Part shown: positions 2,430-24,326 of the stretch, piece after piece
How the letters are laid out: each line of letters opens with the position of its first letter
Position numbering within the stretch: the first letter of the stretch is position 1
Origin: Cyclobacteriaceae bacterium
GTDB lineage: Bacteria > Bacteroidota > Bacteroidia > Cytophagales > Cyclobacteriaceae
Reading direction: 5' to 3'
Assembly: GCA_018224645.1 (NCBI GenBank)
Contig: JAGTVG010000121.1
Location: forward strand, 1 to 33,909
DNA length: 33,909 nucleotides
The notes under the pieces: generated by a model
Database searches by the model: none
The model's input: the letters and a program-made list of their open reading frames with translations, nothing else
What the model was told of the DNA's origin: nothing
Made by a program: the position numbers and the translations under genes

Positions 2430-3299
2430 ATGAAAATTTTGATAATATCCCTGTGTCTTTTCTTTTCAGTCCGGTTTGTTGTTGCCCAGGAGGCCCCATT
2501 GAATGTGATCGTATTTGGGGCACATCCTGACGATCCTGACAGCGATGCCGGTGGATCAGCCATTCTCTGGGCTAAGATGGGCCACAATGTGATGTTTGTT
2601 GCGCTGACAAATGGTGATGCCGGGCACCAGCGTATGGGAGGTGGTGCGCTTGCAAAGATCAGGAGGGCTGAAGCAGCCGAAGCAGGAAATCGATACGGTA
2701 TTAAAAAATACATAACGCTGGATAACCATGATGGTGAATTGATGCCGACCCTGGAAAACCGGCTTAAGATAATACGCCTCATCCGTCAGTGGAATGCTGA
2801 CCTGGTGATCGGTCCCCGGCCGAATGATTACCATCCTGATCACCGGTATACAGGTGTTTTACTGCAGGACGCTGCTTATATGGTTATTGTGCCCAATGTA
2901 GCCTCCGATACACCGCCGCTGAAGAAAAATCCTGTATTCCTTTATTCATCTGACCGCTTTCAGAAACCCAATCCTTTTTCACCTGACATTGTGGTTGATA
3001 TCAGTGATGTTTTTAAACAGAAGATATATGCCATGGCTGCGCATGAATCGCAGTATTTCGACTGGCTGCCATGGACTGCCGGGAGACTCGGCGAAGTGCC
3101 GGAAGGTGAACAGGAAAGACTGGATTGGCTTGCAGAAGTGCGGTATGGGAATATTTCTGAGGAAGAAAAAACATCCCTCACCAAATGGTATGGAAACATA
3201 AATGCAACCAACGTCGAGTCTTTTGAGATCTGTGAATATGGCCGGAGGCCATCGGATGAAGAGATCCGTATGCTATTTCCAATGTTGGGTAATCAATAA
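2430..3299 (+). CDS. Secreted PIG-L/LmbE family deacetylase, copy 1
   Basis: A 289-residue zinc-dependent N-deacetylase of the PIG-L/LmbE family, which removes acetyl groups from N-acetylglucosamine-type substrates (MshB, BshB and LmbE are relatives). A Sec signal peptide covers about residues 1-19 and probably ends at VVAQ. The zinc and catalytic motif AHPDD is at 31-35; the usual Glu after HPDD is replaced by Pro-Asp. The downstream zinc histidine is in YHPDH at 134-138. The length fits the family. The next gene, 13 bases downstream, is a near duplicate. Its place behind an exported sugar oxidoreductase suggests action on an acetylated amino-sugar glycoside in the periplasm or on the cell surface, which is an inference. 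Confidence 0.88.
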   Translation: MKILIISLCLFFSVRFVVAQEAPLNVIVFGAHPDDPDSDAGGSAILWAKMGHNVMFVALTNGDAGHQRMGGGALAKIRRAEAAEAGNRYGIKKYITLDNHDGELMPTLENRLKIIRLIRQWNADLVIGPRPNDYHPDHRYTGVLLQDAAYMVIVPNVASDTPPLKKNPVFLYSSDRFQKPNPFSPDIVVDISDVFKQKIYAMAAHESQYFDWLPWTAGRLGEVPEGEQERLDWLAEVRYGNISEEEKTSLTKWYGNINATNVESFEICEYGRRPSDEEIRMLFPMLGNQ

Positions 3300-3312
3300 C
3301 CGATAAAAGAAT

Positions 3313-4188
3313 ATGAAAAGAATCCTTGTTTTAATGATGTTGATCCTGGGCATCCAGTACGTTTCCTGCGGGCAGGGGGATAAAATAAACGTGATCGTAT
3401 TTGGGGCACATCCTGATGACCCAGACGGTGATGCAGGTACGGCCATTAAGTTTGCCAGCATGGGTCATAATGTGATGTTCGTATCGCTCACCAATGGTGA
3501 TGCCGGTCATCAGTCCATGGGCGGCGGTGCATTGGCCAAGATCAGGAGGGAGGAAGCAGCCGAGGCAGGAAAACGTTACGGTATAAAAAAATACATTACC
3601 CTGGATAATCACGATGGTGAACTGCTGCCAACGCTTGAGGTCCGGCACCAGGTGATCCGCCTGATCCGGGAATGGGATGCGGATGTTGTGATCGGCCCGA
3701 GGCCGAATGATTACCATCCCGACCACCGGTACACCGGTGTCGTCCTTCAGGATGCCGCCTATATGGTCATCGTGCCCAATGTGGCCTCCGATACGCCCCC
3801 GTTGGAAAAAAACCCTGTATTTTTATACACCCGCGATCATTTTCAGAAACCAAACCCTTTCAATCCGGAAATTGCCGTAGATATTTCGGATGTTTATGAA
3901 AAGAAAATATTCGGTATGGCAGCTCACGAATCACAGTTTTTTGACTGGCTGCCCTGGACTGTCGGGAGACTTGAAGAAGTACCGGAAGGTGGGAAGGAAC
4001 GACTTGATTGGCTGGCAAAGACCTGGAGCGATGAAATAACGCCCGGGATCCGCAGCTCATTGGCAAAATGGTACGGTGCTGACCGGGCCGCTAAAGTGAC
4101 CCACGCTGAAACCTTCGAGATCTGTGAATATGGACGTCGGCCTTCCGACGAGGAGATCCGTAAACTTTTTCCGATGCTGGGGAAATGA
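3313..4188 (+). CDS. Exported PIG-L/LmbE family deacetylase, copy 2 (tandem duplicate)
   Basis: A 291-residue paralogue of the preceding gene, with AHPDD at 32-36 and the zinc motif HPDH at 135-138. Over residues 51-150 the two proteins differ at 13 of 100 positions by direct count, so the duplication is fairly recent or under strong constraint. The N-terminal leaders differ clearly: this copy ends in YVSCG and could be a lipoprotein with C19 as the acylated cysteine, while copy 1 has a soluble-type signal peptide. The two copies might therefore work in different places (membrane-anchored versus free periplasmic). The gene ends 20 bases from the 3' end of a convergent oxidoreductase gene, and I see no terminator hairpin in that gap. 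Confidence 0.87.
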   Translation: MKRILVLMMLILGIQYVSCGQGDKINVIVFGAHPDDPDGDAGTAIKFASMGHNVMFVSLTNGDAGHQSMGGGALAKIRREEAAEAGKRYGIKKYITLDNHDGELLPTLEVRHQVIRLIREWDADVVIGPRPNDYHPDHRYTGVVLQDAAYMVIVPNVASDTPPLEKNPVFLYTRDHFQKPNPFNPEIAVDISDVYEKKIFGMAAHESQFFDWLPWTVGRLEEVPEGGKERLDWLAKTWSDEITPGIRSSLAKWYGADRAAKVTHAETFEICEYGRRPSDEEIRKLFPMLGK

Positions 4189-11036: not shown

Positions 11037-12485
11037 ATGCGAAAAAAAACAAAGATCGTCGCGACCATCTCAGACAAAAAATGTGATGTTGATCTCATCC
11101 ATAAGCTGAGGGACAATGGTCTGAATGTTGTCAGGTTGAATACTGCCCATATGGATTTCAACTCAGCCATGAAGGTGATCAAGGATGTTAGGGCGGTTTC
11201 TGACAGTATTGCTATTTTGATTGATACCAAGGGACCAGAGATCCGGACAACTTCGTCGGATGGACCGATCCACGTCACATTTGGTGACCGGATCAAATTA
11301 AAGGGCGATCCAGATAGTAACACCACCGCTTCCTGCCTCAATGTGAATTATAAAAACTTTGTTCAGGATGTTCCTGCCGGAAGCCGGATCCTGATCGATG
11401 ACGGGAGTGTTGAATTGGTTGTTCTTCAGAAGGAAAACGATCACCTGATCTGTGAAGTGAAAAATCAAGGCGTCATCGAAGGCAGAAAAAGTGTGAACAT
11501 TCCTTCAGTGCATGTCACTTTGCCTTCCCTCAGTGAAAAGGACAGGGATTTCATCGTGTTCGCTATTGAACATGATCTTGATTTTATTGCCCATTCCTTT
11601 GTCAGAAGTAAGAAGGATGTGCTGGCCATCCAGGAGATCCTTGACGAAAAGAAAAGTCAGATCAAAATCATCGCCAAAATTGAAAACCAGCAGGGCGTTG
11701 ATAACATTGATGAGATCCTTGATTATGCCTATGGTATCATGGTGGCAAGGGGAGACCTTGCCGTGGAGATCCCCCAGGAAAAAATACCGGGCATACAGAA
11801 ACAACTGATCGAGAAATGTATGCGGCGGCGGAAACCGGTAATCATCGCCACGCAGATGCTTCATTCCATGATCAGGAATCCAAGGCCAACCCGTGCAGAG
11901 ATCAGCGATGTAGCCAATGCCATCTACGATGGTACCGATGCGATCATGCTGAGCGGTGAAACGGCTTATGGAGATTATCCGGTGGAATCGGTCAGGACCA
12001 TGAGTGAGATTGCCATTGAGACGGAAAAGATAAAACCTTCCATCATAGAATTACCACAGGTAGTCCTGAACAGCGATGTAACTGCTTTACTGACGATCGC
12101 AGCAGTAAAAGCATCCGTTGAACTGAATGCAAAGGCGATTATCTGTGACACCATGGATGGACGTTCGATCAGGGCCATGGCAGCTTATCGGGGGCGGAAC
12201 ATTATATTTGCTCAGTGTTATAAAAAACGGGTAATGAGGGAACTTGCACTTTCCTATGGCGTTTATCCCAATTACCAGGATCTGACAGATAGAAACCTTG
12301 ATTTTGTGCTTCCGGCAATAAACATCCTGCTGAAAAATTGGGATGTACGCCAGGATGACCGGATTGTGGTGGTGGCAGGCGATCATCAGTGGGAATCAGG
12401 CATTTCCAATATAGCCATCAAAACGGTAAGAGGATTTTTGAAAAAATTAAATGTTGCTGATAAATTAATGAAAAATGAGCATTAG
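11037..12485 (+). CDS. pyk: Pyruvate kinase
   Basis: Pyruvate kinase, 482 residues from the ATG at 11037, converts phosphoenolpyruvate and ADP to pyruvate and ATP. The frame stays open upstream to 10950, but those 29 residues are not family-like and MRKKTKIVATI is the normal N-terminus, so 11037 was chosen. Motifs in order are VVRLNTAH (31-38), IDTKGPEIR (62-70), KIENQQGVDNIDEI, MVARGDLAVEIP (active site), IATQMLHSMIRNPRPTRAE and DAIMLSGETAYGDYP. The C-terminal regulatory domain is complete. The last codons overlap the start of the next gene by 11 bases, which puts pyk at the head of a tight catabolic operon. In many Bacteroidota pyk stands alone, so this coupling suggests that the downstream pathway feeds phosphoenolpyruvate or pyruvate. 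Confidence 0.95.
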   Translation: MRKKTKIVATISDKKCDVDLIHKLRDNGLNVVRLNTAHMDFNSAMKVIKDVRAVSDSIAILIDTKGPEIRTTSSDGPIHVTFGDRIKLKGDPDSNTTASCLNVNYKNFVQDVPAGSRILIDDGSVELVVLQKENDHLICEVKNQGVIEGRKSVNIPSVHVTLPSLSEKDRDFIVFAIEHDLDFIAHSFVRSKKDVLAIQEILDEKKSQIKIIAKIENQQGVDNIDEILDYAYGIMVARGDLAVEIPQEKIPGIQKQLIEKCMRRRKPVIIATQMLHSMIRNPRPTRAEISDVANAIYDGTDAIMLSGETAYGDYPVESVRTMSEIAIETEKIKPSIIELPQVVLNSDVTALLTIAAVKASVELNAKAIICDTMDGRSIRAMAAYRGRNIIFAQCYKKRVMRELALSYGVYPNYQDLTDRNLDFVLPAINILLKNWDVRQDDRIVVVAGDHQWESGISNIAIKTVRGFLKKLNVADKLMKNEH

Positions 12486-13248
12486 ACCTTATATCCTGAA
12501 CGAGATCAACTGGGAAATGGTTGGATCAACTGATTATGAGATCGCTGTTTTACCCTGGGGGGCTACGGAAGCCCATAATTATCACATGCCCTATGGAACC
12601 GACAACATACAGAATGAATATATCGCTGCAGAGGCTGCCCGGCTTGCATGGGAAAAAGGCGTGAAAGTGGTGGTGCTTCCCAATATTCCATTCGGCGTGA
12701 ATACCCAGCAACTCGATATTAAGCTGACCATCAATATGAGCCCTTCCACCCAGGCTTTTGTCCTCCGGGATGTGGTGGATGCCCTGTATGGCCAGGGAAT
12801 CCGGAAACTCGTCGTTTTTAACGGGCATGGGGGAAATGATTTCCGTCAGATGATCCGTGAAATCAAAGCCGATTTTCCTGATTTTTTTATCTGTTCATTG
12901 AACTGGTTCCAGGCGGATAAAAACTGGGATAAGTATTTTGAGGATACAGGTGATCATGCCGGTGAAATGGAAACGAGCATCATGATGAACATCGTGCCGG
13001 AATGGCTGCTTCCCCTGGAAAAAGCAGGTGATGGAAAAAGCCGGAAACTGAAATTCAAGGGGAGGGATGAAGGCTGGCTCTGGGCGCCCAGGGAATGGAC
13101 AGCGGTGACAAAGGATACCGGGATTGGCAATCCGGCTAAAGCCACGCCTGAAAAAGGAAAAAGATACCTTGATTCGGCAATCCGGAAAATCGCCGAATTT
13201 CTCATTGAACTGAATGCCACCTCACCCGGTGATGTATATATCGATTAA
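12475..13248 (+). CDS. Creatininase-family amidohydrolase
   Basis: A 257-residue cytosolic metal-dependent hydrolase of the creatininase superfamily (PF02633). The metal motif ATEAHNYHMPYGTD gives E32, H34 and D43, spaced as E34, H36 and D45 in Pseudomonas creatininase. NGHGGN is at 116-121 with H118, and HAGEMETS at 161-168 with E164. The GHGGN form, without the Glu found in true creatininase, is that of the wider family, which includes the formamide hydrolase ArfB, mycofactocin peptidase MftE and the inositol-pathway hydrolase IolN. Creatinine is therefore an unlikely substrate. The ATG lies inside the end of pyk, and the next gene follows after 16 bases. Company with a YiaK-like reductase and a PfkB kinase favours ring-opening of an oxidised sugar or cyclitol, which is an inference. 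Confidence 0.88.
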   Translation: MSIRPYILNEINWEMVGSTDYEIAVLPWGATEAHNYHMPYGTDNIQNEYIAAEAARLAWEKGVKVVVLPNIPFGVNTQQLDIKLTINMSPSTQAFVLRDVVDALYGQGIRKLVVFNGHGGNDFRQMIREIKADFPDFFICSLNWFQADKNWDKYFEDTGDHAGEMETSIMMNIVPEWLLPLEKAGDGKSRKLKFKGRDEGWLWAPREWTAVTKDTGIGNPAKATPEKGKRYLDSAIRKIAEFLIELNATSPGDVYID

Positions 13249-13264
13249 ATTCTGAAGACATCCT

Positions 13265-14278
13265 ATGATGCCTGATAACAAGATTCTCATTTCCTTTGAG
13301 AGGCTTAAAAGTCAACTGAACAGCATATTGATTGAATATGGTTTCACCCGGCAAAAGGCGGATCTGCTTTCCGGGATATTTGCCGGGTCAAGCCTGGATG
13401 GTGTTTACTCTCATGGCGTTAACCGTTTCGCACGTTTTATTCAGACGGTGAAAATGGGAATTGTACAAATTGACGAAGAACCGGAGCTGCTGAATTCATC
13501 AGGATCGGTGGAACAATGGAACGGCAACGGTGGACCGGGAATCCTGAATGCCCTCCGCATGATGGAAAGGGCGGTGGAGATCGCCGGAGAATCAGGGATC
13601 GGCTGTGTGGGATTGAACAATACGAATCACTGGATGAGGGGTGGGACCTATGGCTGGCTGGCGGCGGAAAAGGGAAAAATAGGCATATGTTTTACCAATA
13701 CCAAACCCAATATGGTTCCCTGGGGAGGGGCTGAAAAAAGGATCGGCAATAATCCGCTGGTCATTGCCATACCCCGGGAAAAAGGTCATATCGTACTCGA
13801 TATGGCGATGTCCCAGTATTCATTTGGTAAAATTCAGGAATATGCCATGCGGCATCAGGAACTTCCATTCCCTGGAGGATTTGATGATCTCGGGAACCTT
13901 ACGCACGATCCGGAGATTATATTAAAAAATGAAAAGACGATTCCGATCGGATTCTGGAAAGGCAGTGCCCTCTCCTTTGTCCTTGATATCCTTGCAACCC
14001 TGGTTTCCGGTGGCGACAGCGCCTCCCGAATCGAAGGCAGGGAGGAAGAATACGGACTTTCACAGGTCTTTATAGCCATTCAGCCTGGGTTTCTGCCGGA
14101 AAATGAAAAGGACAGGCTGATCGGAGAGATCATTTCCTTTACAAAGAATGTCCCCGGTTTCCGTGAGGGTGATAAGATCTATTATCCGGGTGAAAAAACC
14201 CTTTTCATACGCGAGTTGAACCGGAAAGAGGGGATTCCGGTGAGCGAAAAAGTATGGACTGAAATTTTAAACCTCTGA
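13265..14278 (+). CDS. YiaK-like 2,3-diketo-L-gulonate reductase (malate/L-lactate dehydrogenase family)
   Basis: A 337-residue NAD(P)-dependent oxidoreductase of the Ldh2/malate-lactate dehydrogenase fold. It strongly resembles E. coli YiaK/DlgD, which reduces 2,3-diketo-L-gulonate to 3-keto-L-gulonate: GVYSHGVNRFARFIQ at 46-60 contains the catalytic H50, NHWMRGGTYGW is at 121-131, and GFDDLGNLT and GFWKGSALSFVLDILATL follow. Length and colinearity match YiaK throughout. MMPDNK gives two possible ATG starts three bases apart. The yiaKLMNOPQRS partners of E. coli (UlaD-, UlaE- and UlaF-like enzymes) are absent here, so the actual substrate may be another 2-keto or 2,3-diketo sugar acid. It sits third in the operon, two bases before the next start. 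Confidence 0.88.
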   Translation: MMPDNKILISFERLKSQLNSILIEYGFTRQKADLLSGIFAGSSLDGVYSHGVNRFARFIQTVKMGIVQIDEEPELLNSSGSVEQWNGNGGPGILNALRMMERAVEIAGESGIGCVGLNNTNHWMRGGTYGWLAAEKGKIGICFTNTKPNMVPWGGAEKRIGNNPLVIAIPREKGHIVLDMAMSQYSFGKIQEYAMRHQELPFPGGFDDLGNLTHDPEIILKNEKTIPIGFWKGSALSFVLDILATLVSGGDSASRIEGREEEYGLSQVFIAIQPGFLPENEKDRLIGEIISFTKNVPGFREGDKIYYPGEKTLFIRELNRKEGIPVSEKVWTEILNL

Positions 14279-14280
14279 AA

Positions 14281-15969
14281 ATGCCAGGGTTGAACCTTTT
14301 CATCATATTGCTCTTGTTCATTTTTTCCTGTACAGGGGAAAAATACGGTACTGGAGATGAGAGGATCGTTGTACTTACGTTCGATGATGCGGTCAGATCA
14401 CACCTGACTGTGGTGGCACCGATGTTGAAAAAGTACAATTTTCCGGCTACTTTTTTTGTGACCCATGCATTCATGGATGATTCCGTCAATTTCCTCACCT
14501 GGAGGGAAATAGGGGAACTTCATAAAATGGGCTTTGAAATCGGGAACCATAGCTGGACACATCCCGATTTTTCCCAGCCGGAAAATGCTGCCGGACTTGC
14601 AGGAGAGCTTGGATTGGTAAACTGGCAATTGATGCGACAGGGTGTTCCTGAACCTGTGAGCTTTGCCTGGACAGGAAATGGTTTCGGTCCGGAAGCTTTA
14701 CGGGTTTTGCAGGAACAGGGAATCCGTTTTGCCAGAAGGGGTATGCAACCCGAAGTTCCTTACGGGAAACTGCAGCCTGGGCCTGTGTATATGCCTGATC
14801 AACATCACCGCTTACTGATCCCTACTACCAGAGACGCATATCCGGATATGCAATTATCCGATTATATTCGGGCCATTGAACAGGCGGAAGATGGCAGGAT
14901 TGTTGTCCTGCAGTTTCATGGTGTGCCGGATCCCATCCATCCCTGGGTACACACGGAACCGGAAATGCTTGAAAAATGTTTCAATTACCTGCAGCAGAAT
15001 GCTTATAAAGTGATGGCCTTGCGTGACCTTGAATCCTGGCTGCCGGATTCTGATCCTGTGGATCCCCTGGTAAACAAAAGGCATGTCCTCGGCGATCCGG
15101 ATGATCTCAGGTGGCCGCAGGAAGTGTTATCCACGAGAGAGGATAGGGATTTCTGGATAGGCATCATGAAAGCATTCAATTACAGCATTGCTGAAATGGC
15201 CGGTGTTTTCGGCTGGCCTGAAAAAGAAATGCAGGAGGTAATTCAATCATCCTCATTTTCCCCGGTCCTGCCGGCCCCTGATCAGATAATGGTCCTGCCT
15301 TATCCTGGCGGAAGGCATCCCCGGATCAGTTTCAGGGAAGGCATGTTAAGCCCGATGAGAGGAACCAAGGTCGGCATATTTTTACCGTGGGATCCACAGG
15401 ATTACCTTCTACTCGACCTCCCGGAAGCTGTTTTCAGCCAGTACGGACTTACTTTTCTGGGACACAAACATATCCCGACTTTTTTTGATTTCCGCAAAAT
15501 AAAAATACAGAACCGCGACTGGGTCCTGCATCCGGACGGACATGTGACCAACTCTTGGGAGCTTCCGAACCGCATGGTGATCGGTGCTGAAATTTATCCG
15601 GGTCGGGAGCAGGTGTATATGGATTTGTGGATGTATAACGGCACCAGGGATACCACATTTACTGATATGCAGACGCAGATTTGCATCATGTTCAGGGGAG
15701 CTGAAAATTTCGATTCGCTCACGAATGAAAATAAACTTTTTCAGGATCCGGTCGCCGCTGTCAGGTCGGAAGATGGAGAGCGCTGGATACTGACTGCATG
15801 GGAAGGATGCAATCATGCCTGGGGAAATGAAGATTGCCCATGCATGCATTCCGATCCTGTTTTACCTGATTGTGCTCCTGGAGATACGGTCCGCGTATCT
15901 GGAAAGATATGGTTTTCCATGAATGAAAAAATAAACCTGGAAATGAATAATTACAAAATAAAAGAATAA
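14281..15969 (+). CDS. Lipoprotein with NodB polysaccharide deacetylase domain and a large unassigned C-terminal domain
   Basis: A 562-residue protein with two parts. The leader ends in IFSC (C17), a lipobox. Residues about 28-260 are a NodB/CE4 deacetylase domain: TFDD at 33-36 and NHSWTH at 89-94 give the metal triad D36, H90 and H94, and LQFHGV supplies the late His motif. CE4 enzymes remove N- or O-acetyl groups from polysaccharides. Residues about 270-562 do not resemble a family I can name. They start with a helical stretch, continue with a beta-rich region (RHPRISFREGMLSP, VGIFLPWDPQDY) and contain a tight Cys/His cluster at 510-531. Fusion of a deacetylase to this domain, next to a second deacetylase, suggests a substrate-binding or second catalytic module. 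This is inferred. Confidence 0.82.
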   Translation: MPGLNLFIILLLFIFSCTGEKYGTGDERIVVLTFDDAVRSHLTVVAPMLKKYNFPATFFVTHAFMDDSVNFLTWREIGELHKMGFEIGNHSWTHPDFSQPENAAGLAGELGLVNWQLMRQGVPEPVSFAWTGNGFGPEALRVLQEQGIRFARRGMQPEVPYGKLQPGPVYMPDQHHRLLIPTTRDAYPDMQLSDYIRAIEQAEDGRIVVLQFHGVPDPIHPWVHTEPEMLEKCFNYLQQNAYKVMALRDLESWLPDSDPVDPLVNKRHVLGDPDDLRWPQEVLSTREDRDFWIGIMKAFNYSIAEMAGVFGWPEKEMQEVIQSSSFSPVLPAPDQIMVLPYPGGRHPRISFREGMLSPMRGTKVGIFLPWDPQDYLLLDLPEAVFSQYGLTFLGHKHIPTFFDFRKIKIQNRDWVLHPDGHVTNSWELPNRMVIGAEIYPGREQVYMDLWMYNGTRDTTFTDMQTQICIMFRGAENFDSLTNENKLFQDPVAAVRSEDGERWILTAWEGCNHAWGNEDCPCMHSDPVLPDCAPGDTVRVSGKIWFSMNEKINLEMNNYKIKE

Positions 15970-15972
15970 AAT

Positions 15973-16761
15973 ATGAAGCTCGATCGCAGGAAATTTATAC
16001 AGCAGGCAGGGCTGACTGCCGGTGCGGTTTTGGCCGGAAATTATGTTTATCCTGCTGAAAACCCCGGGATTACACATATCCTTTCCCTGAGTTTTGATGA
16101 TGGTTTTGCCAGATCCTTTATTAAAACGGCTGATATCTATGAAAAATATGGATTGAAGGCCTGTTTCAACGTGATTGCCTCGGGCGGAACCCCTGGCTTC
16201 AAAGGAGTGGATGATTATATCCTTCCGGGGACTATGGGTGATTTTGACCTATGGAATGAACTTCAGGACCGGGGCCATGAGGTCATGCCTCACAGCTACA
16301 AACATGCCAACCTGACACAGATACCCATGGAAGAGGTAAAGGATCTGTTCACCAGATGCATGGATGTTTTCGCAGATCAACTGAAGGGATTCAAACCTGA
16401 GAATTCCATTTATAACTTCCCGTTTAACGCCTCCAATCCCGAGGTGGAATCCTGGATAGGAAAGAGAGTGATGGCTTTTCGGACAGCGGGTGACCTCGTC
16501 AATCCCATGCCGGACCGGAAACGGAAAAAACTAACCTGTATCAGCCAGGGTCCGGATAATATAGATGATTACCTTTCCGCTCAGGTGGATAAATTCCTCG
16601 GGTCAGCCGGAGGATGGTTTATTTTTAACACCCATGGACTGGATGGGGAAGGATGGGGGCCGCTGAGTTCCGGGCTGTTGGATGAAATGCTGGCAGAATT
16701 TGTTGAAATGAAACACGTAGCGGTGTTGCCTGTCGGGACAGCATACAGGCAATTTGGCTGA
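15973..16761 (+). CDS. Exported NodB-type polysaccharide deacetylase
   Basis: A 262-residue CE4/NodB-like protein with a twin-arginine leader (LDRRKFIQQAG at 3-13, hydrophobic to about 22). SFDDG at 40-44 and PHSYKH at 106-111 give the expected metal ligands D42, H107 and H111, and FIFNTHGLDGEGWG near the C-terminus is the usual His motif. It lies three bases after the larger deacetylase lipoprotein. The two are not close copies: they differ in leader type and in the sequence around the metal site. The cytosolic genes in the same operon suggest that deacetylation in the periplasm precedes uptake and catabolism. The target polymer or glycoside is unknown. Confidence 0.85.
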   Translation: MKLDRRKFIQQAGLTAGAVLAGNYVYPAENPGITHILSLSFDDGFARSFIKTADIYEKYGLKACFNVIASGGTPGFKGVDDYILPGTMGDFDLWNELQDRGHEVMPHSYKHANLTQIPMEEVKDLFTRCMDVFADQLKGFKPENSIYNFPFNASNPEVESWIGKRVMAFRTAGDLVNPMPDRKRKKLTCISQGPDNIDDYLSAQVDKFLGSAGGWFIFNTHGLDGEGWGPLSSGLLDEMLAEFVEMKHVAVLPVGTAYRQFG

Positions 16762-16776
16762 TTACCGTGAAACTGG

Positions 16777-17688
16777 ATGAAAACCTATGATGTATTCGGT
16801 ATAGGGGCCGTTACCGTTGATCTGATCGGGAAGGCAGCTTACTGGCCTGGTTCCGGTGATAAAGTACGGCTTGATTCGCTTGAAATGTTTGATGGCGGGT
16901 TGACCGGTACAGCGATTGTAGCGGTTGCCCGTTTGGGTGGAAAGGCGGGGATCGGTGCTAAACTGGGTTATTCTTACTGGTCCCAACGAGCCATAACGGC
17001 TTTGGAAAATGAAAGTGTCGACACTTCATGTATCCTGCGCCGCCATGGATGTGAACCGGTCATTTCTATGATCATTACCAACCAGGAGGATTATGAAAGG
17101 AATATCTTTTTTTCAAGAAAGGGTGTGAGTTATCCCATGCCGGAAGAACTGCCTGATCCTGATTGGTACTTGAAGACAAGCGTGCTTATGATCGATCATG
17201 GCACGGGAAAAGCCGGAGTTGAGGCTGCGAGGCTGGCCTCACAACATGGCGTGGAGGTGATGATCGATGCGGAACGCGTGGAGCCCGGGCTGGAAGAAAT
17301 GTTCGAATTTTGCAATCATATTGTGGTTTCCCGGAAATTTGCCCTGATGTATTCCGGTGTGGAAAAGGTTGAAAAAGCCGCTTTTACTCTCAGAAAGTTC
17401 CCGGAACAGACAATAATCATTACCCTGGGGGAAATGGGACTTATCGGATTGTCCGGCACTCTTGAATTTTCGGTTCCCGGGCACCAGGTAACTGTGGACG
17501 ATACCACGGGGTGCGGGGATGTATTTCATGGCGCCTATGCCCTTGCCATTGCCCGGAAAAAATCTGTTCCGGAGGCAGCCCGTTATGCAAATGCTGCTGC
17601 TGCACTTTCGGCTACCAAAACAGGTGGCCGTGCTGGTATTCCCACGTCGGCTCAGCTTCAAAAATTCCTTCGGGAAAATTCAGGTTGA
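16777..17688 (+). CDS. PfkB-family carbohydrate kinase
   Basis: A 303-residue cytosolic sugar kinase of the ribokinase/PfkB family. The N-terminal motif GGLTGTAIVAVARLGG at 40-55 and the C-terminal signature DDTTGCGDVFHGAYA at 241-255, with catalytic D248, are intact. The region from the signature through EAARYANAAAALS to the GGRAGIP ending resembles YihV-type (sulfofructose kinase) and other keto-sugar kinases rather than fructokinase proper, but this does not fix the substrate. It is the last gene of the operon, 15 bases after the deacetylase, and a 373-bp gene-free gap follows. Its likely role is to phosphorylate the keto-sugar or sugar acid made by the upstream enzymes before aldol cleavage. 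The expected aldolase is not in the window. Confidence 0.9.
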   Translation: MKTYDVFGIGAVTVDLIGKAAYWPGSGDKVRLDSLEMFDGGLTGTAIVAVARLGGKAGIGAKLGYSYWSQRAITALENESVDTSCILRRHGCEPVISMIITNQEDYERNIFFSRKGVSYPMPEELPDPDWYLKTSVLMIDHGTGKAGVEAARLASQHGVEVMIDAERVEPGLEEMFEFCNHIVVSRKFALMYSGVEKVEKAAFTLRKFPEQTIIITLGEMGLIGLSGTLEFSVPGHQVTVDDTTGCGDVFHGAYALAIARKKSVPEAARYANAAAALSATKTGGRAGIPTSAQLQKFLRENSG

Positions 17689-18061: not shown

Positions 18062-19669
18062 TTGTTTCAGATCAAAAGTCAAATCAATGTAAACGCCCCC
18101 GAATTTAAAAATAAGCAGGCGGAAGTACGTGAGCAGGTGAAAAATTATCACAATATTCTTAAATCCGTGATCGACCGGTCCTCATCCGATGCTGTTAAAA
18201 AACACAGAGACCGGGGCAAGCTCCTCGCGAGGGAAAGAATAAATCTGGTCCTGGACCCGGATACTCCTTTCCTGGAATTATCCCCCCTGGCGGCCTATGG
18301 GATGCATGATAACCAGTTTCCTTCAGCTGGGATCATAACGGGGATTGGCGTGATCTCTGGTCATGAAACAGTGATCGTAGCCAATGATGCCAGTGTAAAG
18401 GGAGGAACCTATATCAGGGAAACCATCAAAAAACATATCAGGGCACAGGAAATTGCCATACAGAATCATCTTCCATGTCTTTACATGGTAGATTCCGGAG
18501 GTGTATTCCTTCCTGAGCAGGCGCGGGTATTTCCGGATAAATATGATTTCGGAAGGTTTTTTTATAACCAGGCAAAATTATCAGCCATGGGTTTATCCCA
18601 GATTTCGATCGTCATGGGTTCTTGCACGGCGGGCGGAGCATACGTACCGGCAATGAGTGATGAAACAATCATTGTCAGGAATCAGGGCACCATTTTTATT
18701 GGAGGACCGCCCCTGGTGAAAGCCGCTACCGGCGAGGTGGTCGATGCAGAAACATTGGGGGGGGCCGAGATCCATACATCAACATCTGGCGTAGCCGATC
18801 ACCTGGCTGAAAACGATCGCCATGCCCTTCAGATTGCCAGGAATATTTTCAGGACCATGCCGGTAAAATCTGGCTTCCACTTTGAGCGGATCAATCCGGA
18901 GGAACCGGCTTATGATCCTGAGGAATTATATGGACTGGTTCCACTGAATCTGAAAATACCTGTTGATGCCAGGGAGATCATTGCAAGGATTGTCGATGGA
19001 AGCAGGTTTCATGAATTCAAGGCTGAATATGCGCCCACCCTGGTGACAGGATTCGCCCACCTGATGGGTTACCCGGTAGGAATACTCGCCAATAATGGCG
19101 TGTTTTTTTCGGAGACATCCCTGAAGGGCGCTCACTTCATTGAATTATGTGCATTCAGGAAAATTCCATTGATCTTTCTGCAGAACATAACCGGTTTTAT
19201 CGTGGGAAAAGAATATGAACATAAGGGGATCGCCAGGGATGGAGCCAAACTCGTTCATGCGGTCGCTAATGTCCAGGTTCCGAAATTCACCGTCATTGCA
19301 GGCGGATCTTTCGGTGCCGGAAATTATGCCATGGCGGGAAGGGCCTACGAACCCAATTTGCTTTTCATGTGGCCAAATGCTAAAATTTCGGTCATGGGGG
19401 GTGAACAGGCTGCCGAAGTGCTGATCACCATCAGGGAAGACAAACTTAATGCCATGGGAAAATCCCTGGGTGATGCTGAACGGAAAAAGATATACGAAGA
19501 AACCATCAGAAAATATGAGGAAGAAGGTTCGGCCTATCATTCTACAGCGCGGCTATGGGATGATGGGATCATCGATCCTGTGGATACACGGAAAATTTTG
19601 GCGATGGGTATCGCCATGTCGCTGAACCGGGAAATCCCTGAACCAAAATTCGGAATTTACCGGATGTAA
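18062..19669 (+). CDS. Methylcrotonyl-CoA carboxylase-type carboxyltransferase (beta) subunit
   Basis: A 535-residue carboxyltransferase beta subunit that transfers CO2 from carboxybiotin to an enoyl-CoA. It is colinear with MCC beta over its whole length: the [13 protein letters not shown]-terminus, [32 protein letters not shown] at 186-201, [48 protein letters not shown] and the FGIYRM ending are all family-like. The start is TTG at 18062; the first internal ATG is far inside the conserved core, and MFQIKSQIN aligns with the normal N-terminus. Geranyl-CoA carboxylase beta (AtuC) is a close relative and cannot be excluded from motifs alone. It heads a five-gene operon with hydratase, alpha subunit, AtuA and acyl-CoA dehydrogenase. 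Confidence 0.9.
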
Positions 19670-19686
19670 CAGTTTAAGCAGTTTAT

Positions 19687-20475
19687 ATGAAAGATTTTCA
19701 AACAGTCCTTCTCGAAAAGGAAGGCAATTTTTCAACGATCTGGCTGAACAGGCCTGAGAAAAGAAATGCCTTGAATGAAAAAATGATCGATGAGTTAACT
19801 GAGGCAATCACAAACATCAACCTGGAGAATCAGCAACGGTTGATCATCCTACGGGGGAAAGGGAAGGCATTTTCATCGGGTGCTGACCTGGATATGATGC
19901 GTGATGCGAAGGAAACCGCTCCAGGAGTGAAGATTGGCAAAATAAACCAGCTTCCACGTTGCCTCTCTGTCATTTATCAATCTGAAATTCCGGTAATTGG
20001 CGTGGCGCATGGATCAGTATTTGGCGGAGCCAATGGGATCCTTGCGGCCTGCGATATTGCACTCGCCGGAGCAAACACTGTTTTTGCTTTCAGCGAGGTA
20101 CGCCTCGGCCTTATACCCGCAGCGATTGCCCCTTATGTGATGAAAAGAACCGGGGAGTCCAAGGCCAGGGAATTTATGCTCACCGGTAAAAGATTTATGG
20201 CCCGGGAAGCGGAGATGTCAGGTTTGATCAACAGGTCACTTCCTGAAGATGCCCTTGAGGCCCATCTGGATGATTTGGTACAGGATATTCTGGCAGGGGG
20301 TCCGGAGGCCATCAGCATATGTAAATCGATGATCAGTCAGATTGCAAACGTCTGGGATTTGAATGAATCCCTGATTGAAACCGGAAAACTCATCCTGCAG
20401 GTCAGGGGGTCCGAAGAGGCACAAAGGAGGATGAGCTCATTTTTGAATAAAAAGCAAGGAAATTCAGCGAAATAA
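19687..20475 (+). CDS. Enoyl-CoA hydratase, methylglutaconyl-CoA hydratase (LiuC/AtuE) type
   Basis: A 262-residue crotonase-fold hydratase. GKAFSSGADLDMM at 58-70 and SVFGGANGILAACDIALA at 110-127 form the oxyanion pocket, and FSEVRLGLIPAAIAPYV holds E137, matching the second catalytic Glu of mitochondrial crotonase. The first Glu is replaced by G117, a pattern I associate with bacterial methylglutaconyl-CoA hydratases rather than with fatty-acid crotonases. The expected reaction is hydration of 3-methylglutaconyl-CoA to HMG-CoA, or of isohexenylglutaconyl-CoA in the terpene pathway. The gene lies between the two carboxylase subunits (17- and 19-base gaps), the same order as in liuBCD. Confidence 0.87.
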   Translation: MKDFQTVLLEKEGNFSTIWLNRPEKRNALNEKMIDELTEAITNINLENQQRLIILRGKGKAFSSGADLDMMRDAKETAPGVKIGKINQLPRCLSVIYQSEIPVIGVAHGSVFGGANGILAACDIALAGANTVFAFSEVRLGLIPAAIAPYVMKRTGESKAREFMLTGKRFMAREAEMSGLINRSLPEDALEAHLDDLVQDILAGGPEAISICKSMISQIANVWDLNESLIETGKLILQVRGSEEAQRRMSSFLNKKQGNSAK

Positions 20476-20494
20476 AAAGATTAAAACAGGCATT

Positions 20495-22501
20495 TTGGGT
20501 TTATTTAAAAAAATACTGATAGCCAATCGTGGAGAGATCGCTATCAGGATACAGAAAACAGCCAGAAGGCTGGGAATCCATACGGTGGCCATATGTACGC
20601 CTGAGGATGCAGATGATATGTATGTAAGAATGGCGGATGAATCCTGGCAATTGAAGGGGAAAAGCCTTGCCGATACCTACCTGAATATCACCCGGATCAT
20701 TGACCTTGCCATCCGGTCAGGAGCAGAGGCGGTTCATCCCGGTTATGGGTTTCTTTCTGAAAATCCTGAATTTGCGGATGCCTGTGAAAAACATCATATG
20801 GTTTTTATCGGCCCCCCGGGAGAAATGATCCGATTGATGGGAAATAAGATCACCTCCGGAAAATTTGTGGAAAGCCTGGGCGTACCTGTCCCCGAAACGA
20901 TCACGGGAAATAAATCTGAAATCCTCAGCCGCAGACATTCCATCGATTTTCCGGTGCTGGTAAAAGCTGCCGGAGGAGGAGGAGGTAAGGGTATGAGAAT
21001 TGTGGAATCGGCTGAACATCTTGAAACGGCGCTGTTATCCACCGCACGGGAAGCAAAAGCCTATTTTGATAATGAAGAGATATATCTTGAAAAATATATT
21101 GAAAAACCCCGTCATATTGAAGTACAGATCCTGGGAGACCATTACGGGAATGTAATCCACCTGTTTGAAAGGGAATGTTCTGTCCAGAGAAGATATCAGA
21201 AGATCATTGAAGAGACGCCTGCCGTGAAGGTGCCTGAAAAGATACGGGAAAGGATCAGGCACGATGCAGTTACCATCGCCGGCGGGATGCAATACAGGAA
21301 TGCGGGTACCATCGAATTTCTTGTCGACGGGAATTGGGATTATTATTTCCTCGAAATGAATACAAGGCTGCAGGTTGAACATCCGGTTACGGAAATGACC
21401 ACGGGGATTGACCTGGTGGAACAGCAGATAAGGATTGCTTCGGGAGAAAAACTGGGGATATCGCAGGAAAATATACGTCAAACCGGCCATGCGATGGAAT
21501 GCAGGCTCTATGCGGAAGATCCAGCCCGGGATTTTCTGCCTTCGCCGGGCAGGATAACGCTGTACAGGGAGCCGGTATCGGAAAAGATCAGGATGGATTC
21601 AGGCATTTCCGGACCCGGGAATATTTCTCCCAGGTTCGATCCGCTGATCGGAAAGCTGGTCGTCAGGGGAGTGGATAGAAAGGAGGTCCTGGAACAAATG
21701 TCTTCTGCTTTATCTTCCTGCATCATACACGGCGTCACCCATAACATCCCCTTTCTCCAGTCCCTTATCCGGCATCCATTATTCAAGTCCAATGATATCT
21801 CTACCCATTTCTATGAAGAGAATAAGAAAGAAATTCTGGAAAACATGAAACATGAACAGGAAAAATTGGATCCTTTATTGCCGTTGTCCTTTTTTCTGGT
21901 TCATCAGTTGAACACAAGCAGACAAATCAGGCCGGTGAATGTCTGGCAGGAAATTGGTTTCTGGCGTTTGATGATGGAAATACCCGTTAAAAGCCAATCC
22001 GGTGAAATGATTGTCAGCATATTGGGAAACGATAACCAGGGGTTTAAACTGGAGATGGGTGCCAGAGAACTTACTGCCGGTATTATTTCGGCCGTTGATA
22101 ATGATATGACGCTGGAAATTAATGGGAAAACCTTGAGGGCAGTTGTTTCTTCCGGAAATGGTGGAAAGGGATGGGTCTCCTTTGAAGGACAGTTGTTTGA
22201 ATTCAGCCGCCTGGATGTCCTTCCCGGAGAATATATTTTTACGGAAACGGGTTCAGGTGAAAATAGCCATTCGGGGAAGATATTTTCACCCATGCCGGGT
22301 AAGATAGTGGATATACGGATCAGCAGAAACGCTACGGTCAGCAAGGGAGATATTCTTCTGGTCGTTGAGGCCATGAAAATGGAAAACAGCCTTGTCGCAC
22401 CTTTTGACGGACAGGTCAGCGCCGTTCATGCCAGGATGGGGCAATTGATCGGCAACAGGGAATTATTGATGGAATTGGTTCCGTCAGGGAAGGAAAATTA
22501 A
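20495..22501 (+). CDS. Biotin-dependent acyl-CoA carboxylase alpha subunit (biotin carboxylase plus BCCP)
   Basis: A 668-residue alpha subunit of MCC/GCC/PCC type. Residues 1-115 are the biotin carboxylase N-domain (FKKILIANRGEIAIR), about 116-325 the ATP-grasp domain (AAGGGGGKGMRIV, EKYIEKPRHIEVQILGD, EMNTRLQVEHPVTE), and about 340-445 the C-domain (ECRLYAEDP). A middle region at 450-595 corresponds to the BT domain, and a biotinyl carrier domain from about 600 has the biotin lysine K628 in EAMKMEN. The start is a TTG at 20495, the only start that gives the normal MGLFKKILIANRG beginning. It partners the beta subunit two genes upstream. The stop is one base from the AtuA-family start. Confidence 0.92.
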   Translation: MGLFKKILIANRGEIAIRIQKTARRLGIHTVAICTPEDADDMYVRMADESWQLKGKSLADTYLNITRIIDLAIRSGAEAVHPGYGFLSENPEFADACEKHHMVFIGPPGEMIRLMGNKITSGKFVESLGVPVPETITGNKSEILSRRHSIDFPVLVKAAGGGGGKGMRIVESAEHLETALLSTAREAKAYFDNEEIYLEKYIEKPRHIEVQILGDHYGNVIHLFERECSVQRRYQKIIEETPAVKVPEKIRERIRHDAVTIAGGMQYRNAGTIEFLVDGNWDYYFLEMNTRLQVEHPVTEMTTGIDLVEQQIRIASGEKLGISQENIRQTGHAMECRLYAEDPARDFLPSPGRITLYREPVSEKIRMDSGISGPGNISPRFDPLIGKLVVRGVDRKEVLEQMSSALSSCIIHGVTHNIPFLQSLIRHPLFKSNDISTHFYEENKKEILENMKHEQEKLDPLLPLSFFLVHQLNTSRQIRPVNVWQEIGFWRLMMEIPVKSQSGEMIVSILGNDNQGFKLEMGARELTAGIISAVDNDMTLEINGKTLRAVVSSGNGGKGWVSFEGQLFEFSRLDVLPGEYIFTETGSGENSHSGKIFSPMPGKIVDIRISRNATVSKGDILLVVEAMKMENSLVAPFDGQVSAVHARMGQLIGNRELLMELVPSGKEN

Positions 22502-22502
22502 T

Positions 22503-24326
22503 ATGAAAAAAAGCATCAGGATAGGCAATGCAGGAGGTTTCTGGGGAGATGATCTCCAGGCTTTCAGGAGACAGCTTCTGACAGGAAAGCTTGATTACCT
22601 GACGATGGATTTTCTTGCAGAGATTACCATGAGTATACTCCGCAAACAGCAGATCCGTGATCCGGAGGCGGGATATATCGGGGATTTTGTCGATCAGGTT
22701 GTTGAAAATGCGGAACTCATTGAAAAATCAGGCACGAAGATCCTGACAAATGCCGGCGGGATCAATCCACTTGGCTGTGCCCGGAAAATCATATCAGCAT
22801 TGAAAAAGCAGAACAGGTCGTTGAAACTGGCTGTGGTTGACGGGGATGATCTGATGGCGGTTATTGACCAGTTGTACCCTGGAAAGGCGGATTTTAAAAA
22901 CATGGAAACGGGGGTATCATTTGAAGAGATCAGGCAGCAGATTCAGAGTGCGAACGCCTACATGGGAATAATCCCTCTGCTGAAAGCCCTTCAAACTGAG
23001 GCAAATATCATCATTACAGGCCGTGTGACAGATACATCCATTACTATGGCCCCGATGGTACATGAACTGGGTTGGGAATTAAATGACTGGGATAAACTGG
23101 CCAGCGGTTTAATTGCCGGACATATCATTGAATGCGGGGCTCAGTCTACCGGCGGAAATTTCACCGATTGGAAAACGATAAAAACCTGGACCGACTTCGG
23201 GTATCCCATTGTCGAAATGTATGAAGATGGCAGTTTTGATGTCATCAAAGCCGATAATTCCGGGGGGATCATCAGCAGGGATTCGGTGAAGGAACAGATC
23301 GTCTATGAAATGGGTGATCCATCTGCATATATCAGCCCCGATGTCGTGGCTGATTTTACTGCCATTCAAATTTCAGAAAAGGGTAAGGACCGGGTCAGGA
23401 TTTCCGAAGCAAAAGGGTATCCGCCAACTCATTTTCTGAAAATATCCATGGCATACAAGGATGGATATTCGGCAAGTGGCCATGTGATCATCAGTGGTCC
23501 TGAGGCCATAATAAAGGCGGAAAAGGTCCGGGAAATATTCTGGGACCGCCTTGGTATAAGCTTTGAAAAACAAAATACGGAATTTATCGGATTTAATGCG
23601 GCGCACCTTAATCTGGCTGCTTCGTTGGAACCGAACGAGATCCTGATCCGTTTCAGTGTTTATGACAGGGAGAGGGAAAAGCTGGAAATTTTTTCAAAGA
23701 ACATTGCCCCATTGATCCTGAGCGGACCTCCCGGAATGGCCGTTACGGGTGGCCGACCCAGAATTACACAGGTTTTGACGTATTGGCCGTCATTGATTCA
23801 TAAAAAATGGATAAATCCCAGGTTAATAATTCCTGATGATCAGGGGCATATTAAGGAAGAATATATGCTAAGTTCAGTAACCGGTTTTGAATCGGGACAG
23901 GATTACAGCAGGAGCAGGGTTCAGGAGGCAAAGGACCCTGAAGCATTCAATATATCCGGGGAAACGGAGAATATACGCCTGGCGGATCTATGCCTGGCGC
24001 GGAGTGGAGATAAGGGGGATACCGCCAATCTGGGGGTTCTGGCAAGAAGTAGGGAGATATATGAATTTCTCAAGGAACACCTGACGGCTGGAATTATTAA
24101 AAATATGTTCCGGGGACATTGCCGGGGAAAAGTAATAAGATATGAACTGGATAATCTTCAGGCCTTGAATTTTCTGCTTCATGAAGCATTGGATGAGGGA
24201 GGCACCAGGTCATTACGGATCGATGCGCAGGGTAAAACCTTTGCCCAGGCATTTCTGAATCAAAGGGTCCCGGTACCGGTATCCTTGTCAGCATTGGTTA
24301 CGCAGAATTTATCAAAGAAAGGATAA
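22503..24326 (+). CDS. AtuA family protein (acyclic terpene utilisation, DUF1446)
   Basis: A 607-residue protein of the AtuA/DUF1446 family. The N-terminal signature IRIGNAGGFWGDD and KLDYLTMDFLAEITMSIL, followed by TNAGGINP, IITGRVTDTSITMAP and HIIECGAQSTGGNF, are typical. The last 110 residues, from about 497 (LADLCLARSGDKGDTANLGVLA), form the small AtuA-like C-terminal domain found in full-length members. AtuA is required for growth on citronellol in Pseudomonas, but its biochemical role is not established to my knowledge. Its company with a carboxylase, hydratase and acyl-CoA dehydrogenase points to branched or terpenoid acyl-CoA breakdown. The gene starts one base after the carboxylase alpha stop and ends 8 bases before the dehydrogenase start. 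Confidence 0.9.
   Translation: MKKSIRIGNAGGFWGDDLQAFRRQLLTGKLDYLTMDFLAEITMSILRKQQIRDPEAGYIGDFVDQVVENAELIEKSGTKILTNAGGINPLGCARKIISALKKQNRSLKLAVVDGDDLMAVIDQLYPGKADFKNMETGVSFEEIRQQIQSANAYMGIIPLLKALQTEANIIITGRVTDTSITMAPMVHELGWELNDWDKLASGLIAGHIIECGAQSTGGNFTDWKTIKTWTDFGYPIVEMYEDGSFDVIKADNSGGIISRDSVKEQIVYEMGDPSAYISPDVVADFTAIQISEKGKDRVRISEAKGYPPTHFLKISMAYKDGYSASGHVIISGPEAIIKAEKVREIFWDRLGISFEKQNTEFIGFNAAHLNLAASLEPNEILIRFSVYDREREKLEIFSKNIAPLILSGPPGMAVTGGRPRITQVLTYWPSLIHKKWINPRLIIPDDQGHIKEEYMLSSVTGFESGQDYSRSRVQEAKDPEAFNISGETENIRLADLCLARSGDKGDTANLGVLARSREIYEFLKEHLTAGIIKNMFRGHCRGKVIRYELDNLQALNFLLHEALDEGGTRSLRIDAQGKTFAQAFLNQRVPVPVSLSALVTQNLSKKG

Follow-up and report, generated by a model that had tools for sequence, protein, structure and literature searches.

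What does the C-terminal region of a NodB-type deacetylase do when it matches no family in the libraries searched and carries a dense cluster of cysteines and histidines? The question is raised by one gene in the 33,909-nucleotide stretch of Cyclobacteriaceae DNA analyzed here (contig JAGTVG010000121.1; hereafter the window), whose product comprises a NodB (CE4) domain at approximately residues 24-254 and a separate C-terminal domain at approximately residues 280-562:

14281..15969, + strand: whole gene, NodB-type deacetylase with an unnamed C-terminal domain (562 aa, ATG start)
14281..14331, + strand: hydrophobic N-terminus with Cys17, possible lipoprotein signal (sequence only)
14350..15042, + strand: NodB/CE4 deacetylase domain, residues ~24-254 (PF01522)
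15118..15249, + strand: predicted four-helix N-terminal part of the C-terminal domain, residues 280-323, weakly HTH-like (AlphaFold2)
15292..15918, + strand: predicted beta-supersandwich part, residues 338-546 (AlphaFold2 and Foldseek)

The first-pass annotation described a NodB deacetylase fused to an unrecognized domain, and this description holds: the ORF bounds are exact, PF01522 covers residues 24-150 (E 3e-19, 69.6 bits against a cutoff of 23.1), and nothing is assigned past it. The protein features the NodB motifs TFDD (33-36), H-x3-H (H90 and H94) and LQFH (210-213), with the metal triad residues D35, D36, H90 and H94 all present. Across 36 aligned NodB fusions D35, D36 and H94 are nearly invariant, and Q211-F212-H213 is invariant. 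The arginine of the usual CE4 motif 3, RxP(Y), was not found in these fusions, which possess FAW[PT]GN in its place followed by an ARRG segment that sets them apart from usual CE4. This arginine varies across CE4 and is not decisive for membership; the profile match and metal triad therefore place the N-terminal domain within NodB/CE4, to which the C-terminal domain is unrelated. The NodB subgroup of the window protein also features an invariant ARRG...LQFHGVPD set, which, together with FAW[PT]GN, may reflect a different substrate. The N-terminus, MPGLNLFIILLLFIFSC, has a hydrophobic stretch and Cys17, but lacks positive charge and has a non-ideal lipobox, and residues 1-21 are disordered in the full-length AlphaFold2 model; as read from these letters, lipoprotein identity is only plausible. 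In the same model (pLDDT 88, pTM 0.59) both domains are predicted confidently, but their mutual arrangement is not, and the linker is weak at 273-276.

Pfam and NCBIfam assign nothing past residue ~262, and neither PHROGs nor the PDB sequences gave the C-terminal domain a credible match; a literature search for a description of the domain found none. PDB profile matches to ferredoxin-thioredoxin reductase (through its CPC motif; FTR E 0.33) and to ferritin were rejected as chance level (E 0.3-0.8). As a direct query, the window domain found no relatives in the genome collection, nor was the domain found in viral contigs and plasmids. One good homologue, L003, was found among 396 Bacteroidota genomes, with 40% identity. 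A degenerate DNA pattern for WGNxxCPCxHxDP matched at least 120 loci; the matches listed comprise 83 from Planctomycetota, 20 from Acidobacteriota, seven from Verrucomicrobiota, four from Hydrogenedentota, two from Bacteroidota, one from Lentisphaerota and three unplaced. The domain has more than 120 homologues, mostly in Planctomycetota, and founds an unnamed family on what is predicted to be a known fold. A profile, A1, was built from 93 domains (the window's and 92 found by pattern), and its strong matches include full-length copies in 91 of 249 Planctomycetia and 15 of 68 Hydrogenedentota genomes. Nine candidates were scored per genome in this survey, so copy numbers are lower bounds; the usual number is one full-length copy, as in 9/9 genomes with all candidates scored, the exceptions being a Hydrogenedentota genome that has two and a Planctomycetia genome carrying an additional fragment. 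In a genome of the window's own genus, a short decayed remnant (L002; G001:C10, ~3564-3641, - strand; TAWNEGNQAWGNEDYPCLHSDPRLPD) retains 73% identity over 26 residues.

The first-pass annotation had further proposed that C510, H512, C519, C521, H523 and C531 form a metal site or disulfides. These residues are correctly numbered, and the protein has only seven Cys. When its composition was shuffled 100,000 times, a 22-residue stretch with at least four Cys and at least six Cys plus His appeared 77 times; chance therefore does not explain the clustering. Conservation was scored on 60 full-length homologues from protein or profile searches; the pattern set (L004-L123) was left out for C519, C521 and H523 because the pattern required those residues, although a few of the 60 (L124-L132) come from genomes first reached via pattern matches, and the profile itself derives from such matches. 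Seventeen positions are identical in 60/60: H346, R348, R360, D379, P381, E382, H395, N453, Q466, C468, W514, N516, P520, C521, H523, D525 and P526. H397 follows in 59/60. Only C521 and H523 of the reported six belong to this core. C519 is Cys in 52/60 (otherwise Val), C531 in 47/60 and C510 in 33/60, and the H512 position is never His, but Arg, Lys or Asn throughout. The proposal of six joint ligands was therefore mostly wrong in detail, and neither a structural site built from the Cys/His cluster nor a disulfide between these cysteines is likely, since the six are not jointly conserved; it also omitted the invariant C468. The conserved site comprises E382, H395, C468, C521 and H523, with D525 and N516, and maps to the following motifs:

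15301..15324, + strand: YPGGRHPR motif, residues 341-348, with H346 and R348 invariant in the 60-homologue alignment
15421..15426, + strand: P381-E382, part of the conserved site (60/60)
15463..15471, + strand: H395-x-H397, part of the conserved site
15676..15684, + strand: Q466-x-C468, on the predicted strand 463-470 (60/60)
15820..15858, + strand: W514-G-N-x-x-C519-P-C521-x-H523-S-D525-P motif, the reported cluster

More broadly, 34 columns are invariant across 93 pattern-found homologues, and most also hold in the 60 found by profile. The window copy itself deviates at near-invariant positions, with F299 for His, S350 for Gly, F402 for Trp and H512 for Arg/Lys. These deviations, and the mere remnant in its genus-mate, suggest that selection on the domain may be relaxed in this lineage.

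A looser superfamily surrounds the family, comprising exported proteins of ~300 residues and the C-terminal parts of GH43/GH130-like propeller proteins (L144-L148, L174-L185). Across 22 of these cousins, W414, N453, C521 and H523 are kept in 22/22, C468 in 20/22, E382 and N516 in 17/22 and H395 in 16/22, the counts for C521 and H523 being somewhat favored because the cousins were detected partly via this motif. Unlike the family, they have neither the YPGGRHPR motif nor its conserved helical N-terminus, and C519 (0/22), C510 (0/22) and C531 (3/22) are mostly missing. L144, L155 and L180-L184 form the C-terminal part of longer unannotated proteins, of which at least L144 carries a GH43/GH130-like propeller. 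L145, L147 and L148 belong to a second exported family, likewise unnamed (~290-320 aa), which features QPC...CxHSD motifs and matches nothing in Pfam or NCBIfam.

For structure prediction, which the first-pass annotation had suggested together with a fold search, AlphaFold2 on profile A1 gave a confident model (pLDDT 91.5, pTM 0.90) with four helices, then ~14 beta strands and a C-terminal helix; weak Sigma70_r4-like matches occur in 3/93 members. Foldseek against the PDB returned at the top beta-supersandwich proteins of the galactose-mutarotase type, mostly sugar enzymes, namely GH94/GH65 phosphorylase N-domains, Slr1438, the b2544 aldose 1-epimerase and also YidC (E from 1.5e-5, with probability 1.00, to 2e-3 for the sugar enzymes), with TM-scores of 0.3-0.47 that, being low, indicate only fold class and not family. 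YidC is a non-enzyme, which counts against an enzymatic reading of the fold. By this prediction the domain would fall in the fold class of the galactose mutarotase/aldose 1-epimerase superfamily (PF01263 and relatives; GH65/GH94 N-domains), but it has an extra four-helix N-terminus and a different invariant set. In the model one predicted strand (519-528) presents C519, C521, H523 and D525 at alternating positions, and a second (463-470) does so for Q466 and C468. Galactose mutarotases bind their sugar on the concave face of the fold, whose strands supply the catalytic His and Glu. Catalysis in these enzymes relies on two His and one Glu (PMC5902678). Compared by eye, CLHSDP..PGE near the C-terminus here resembles CLETQ..PGE in aldose epimerases, the Glu of their pattern falling on an invariant His; the likeness is suggestive only. 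The Pfam profile for aldose 1-epimerases (PF01263) has no match to the domain, and hhalign with both narrow and broad profiles gave no significant homology to these enzymes (probability ~1% or less). Because this profile-profile comparison is not significant, the C-x-H/C-x-E likeness stays a lead.

The domain recurs in many architectures. Among the 93, 32 are stand-alone, 34 lie C-terminal to NodB and 11 are fused to CehA/McbA metallohydrolases, the last counted by the length of the C-terminal part and confirmed by NF038032 for three; this frequent partner in Planctomycetota is not in the window protein. Other partners, mostly hydrolases, comprise PhoPQ-related, CN-hydrolase, esterase/DLH-like, DUF6807, 3-keto-disaccharide hydrolase, Sde182-like and propeller domains. 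By a crude test, 29/32 stand-alone copies have a hydrophobic N-terminus; such apparently exported copies are common, so the domain can function on its own. A maximum-likelihood tree of the domain requires no fewer than 20 changes of partner among the labeled entries; NodB, the commonest partner in that set, needs six changes. The window copy clusters with NodB fusions from two Bacteroidia MAGs and one Opitutaceae MAG. NodB as a separate gene beside a stand-alone domain was seen at one locus only. One protein, L074, has two sandwich copies.

In the window the gene belongs to a closely packed run that starts with pyruvate kinase and ends with a PfkB kinase, with gaps of at most 17 bp or overlaps:

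12475..13248, + strand: creatininase-family amidohydrolase (PF02633), same tight run
13265..14278, + strand: 3-dehydro-L-gulonate 2-dehydrogenase-like protein (Ldh_2; NF009750, 410.8 bits against a cutoff of 316), 2 bp upstream
15973..16761, + strand: second NodB protein, Tat-type (PF01522 E 2e-10; TIGR01409 Tat signal), 3 bp downstream
16777..17688, + strand: PfkB-family sugar kinase (PF00294), end of the tight run

A stand-alone homologue in another Bacteroidota genome (L249; G417:C1, 589-9590) is separated by 22 bp from a fucose/arabinose-isomerase-like gene and by 81 bp from PduL, within a microcompartment operon with BMC shell proteins, aldehyde dehydrogenase and EutN. Together these two unrelated operons point weakly to sugar catabolism. 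Conserved neighbors were sought across loci and none recurs, so functional linkage by neighbors was rejected; the frequent ones (sulfatase, DUF1501-like and Gfo/Idh/MocA genes, named from their sequence without a family search) are common in these phyla. Elsewhere in the window, two PIG-L type de-N-acetylases stand in tandem at positions 2430-4188, near a GH127 beta-L-arabinofuranosidase and Gfo/Idh/MocA genes; counting the two NodB genes, the window has four deacetylase-type genes. Downstream, at 18062-24326, a biotin-dependent acyl-CoA carboxylase (carboxyltransferase and biotin carboxylase), an enoyl-CoA-hydratase-like gene and AtuA form an acyclic terpene/leucine-type degradation cluster.

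A sugar-directed active or binding pocket is likelier than the proposed cluster. We tentatively prefer a catalytic pocket that acts on sugars, set in a mutarotase-like fold, a reading we hold to be nearly evenly poised. The C-terminal region would be an independent exported domain, modeled as a galactose-mutarotase-like beta-supersandwich preceded by four short helices, in which H346/R348, D379/E382, H395/H397, Q466/C468 and C521/H523/D525 could line a pocket comparable to that of mutarotases. It would most likely perform a second sugar-directed step, such as an anomerization, epimerization or related acid/base reaction, on a saccharide deacetylated or cleaved outside the cytoplasm by the fused hydrolase, here NodB; these steps would precede uptake and cytoplasmic catabolism. 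At least 12 polar and Cys residues invariant in the 60 profile-found homologues, and a core retained in the cousins, count for this reading, as do the fold matches, the exported stand-alone copies, the recurrent hydrolase partners, the usual single copy and the sugar-catabolic setting of the two operons; the low TM-scores, the non-significant profile comparison and the absence of recurring neighbors count against it. The second function that the first-pass annotation considered possible is plausible in view of the 34 invariant columns, and is the best-supported reading. That the family is a new class of exported sugar-active enzyme, with C468/C521 and H523 replacing His/Glu chemistry on the mutarotase fold and deployed in modular fusions to many hydrolases in Planctomycetota, is a rather doubtful extension.

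The many different hydrolase partners, the beta-sandwich architecture and the position of the cousins behind GH43/GH130-like propellers would suit a module that recognizes carbohydrate without catalysis and directs the fused hydrolase to a polysaccharide. Such a module would not be expected to occur so often as a stand-alone exported form, the single full-length copy usual per genome is unlike a repeated binding module, and the invariant residues are His, Cys, Asp, Glu and Arg rather than mainly aromatic; we regard it as unlikely, if the strongest competitor to a catalytic pocket. Somewhat less probable is a metal ion (Zn, Fe or Cu), structural or catalytic, held by C468, C521 and H523 with H395/E382, which would rescue the earlier idea with other ligands. 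C468, C521, H523 and H395 are invariant in the family and largely kept in the cousins, and the predicted alternation of C519, C521, H523 and D525 on one strand would be compatible with a site, but only two Cys are invariant, and the profile matches to metal proteins, FTR among them, are at chance level. Disulfides among C510, C519 and C531 would stabilize an exported protein, and C519 and C531 co-occur in 43/60; each Cys is nevertheless often missing while others remain (C519 without C531 in nine of the 60, C531 without C519 in four, C510 without C531 in seven), so co-variation was rejected, and all three are nearly absent in the cousins, leaving this reading very improbable.

Planctomycetota and their relatives encode many unassigned exported proteins, and this domain, whose invariant residues look catalytic, occurs in approximately one third of the sampled Planctomycetia genomes and is fused to approximately eight other domain types, mostly hydrolases. 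A single biochemical assay would therefore give hundreds of proteins an annotation, and might bring a further activity into the mutarotase-like superfamily.
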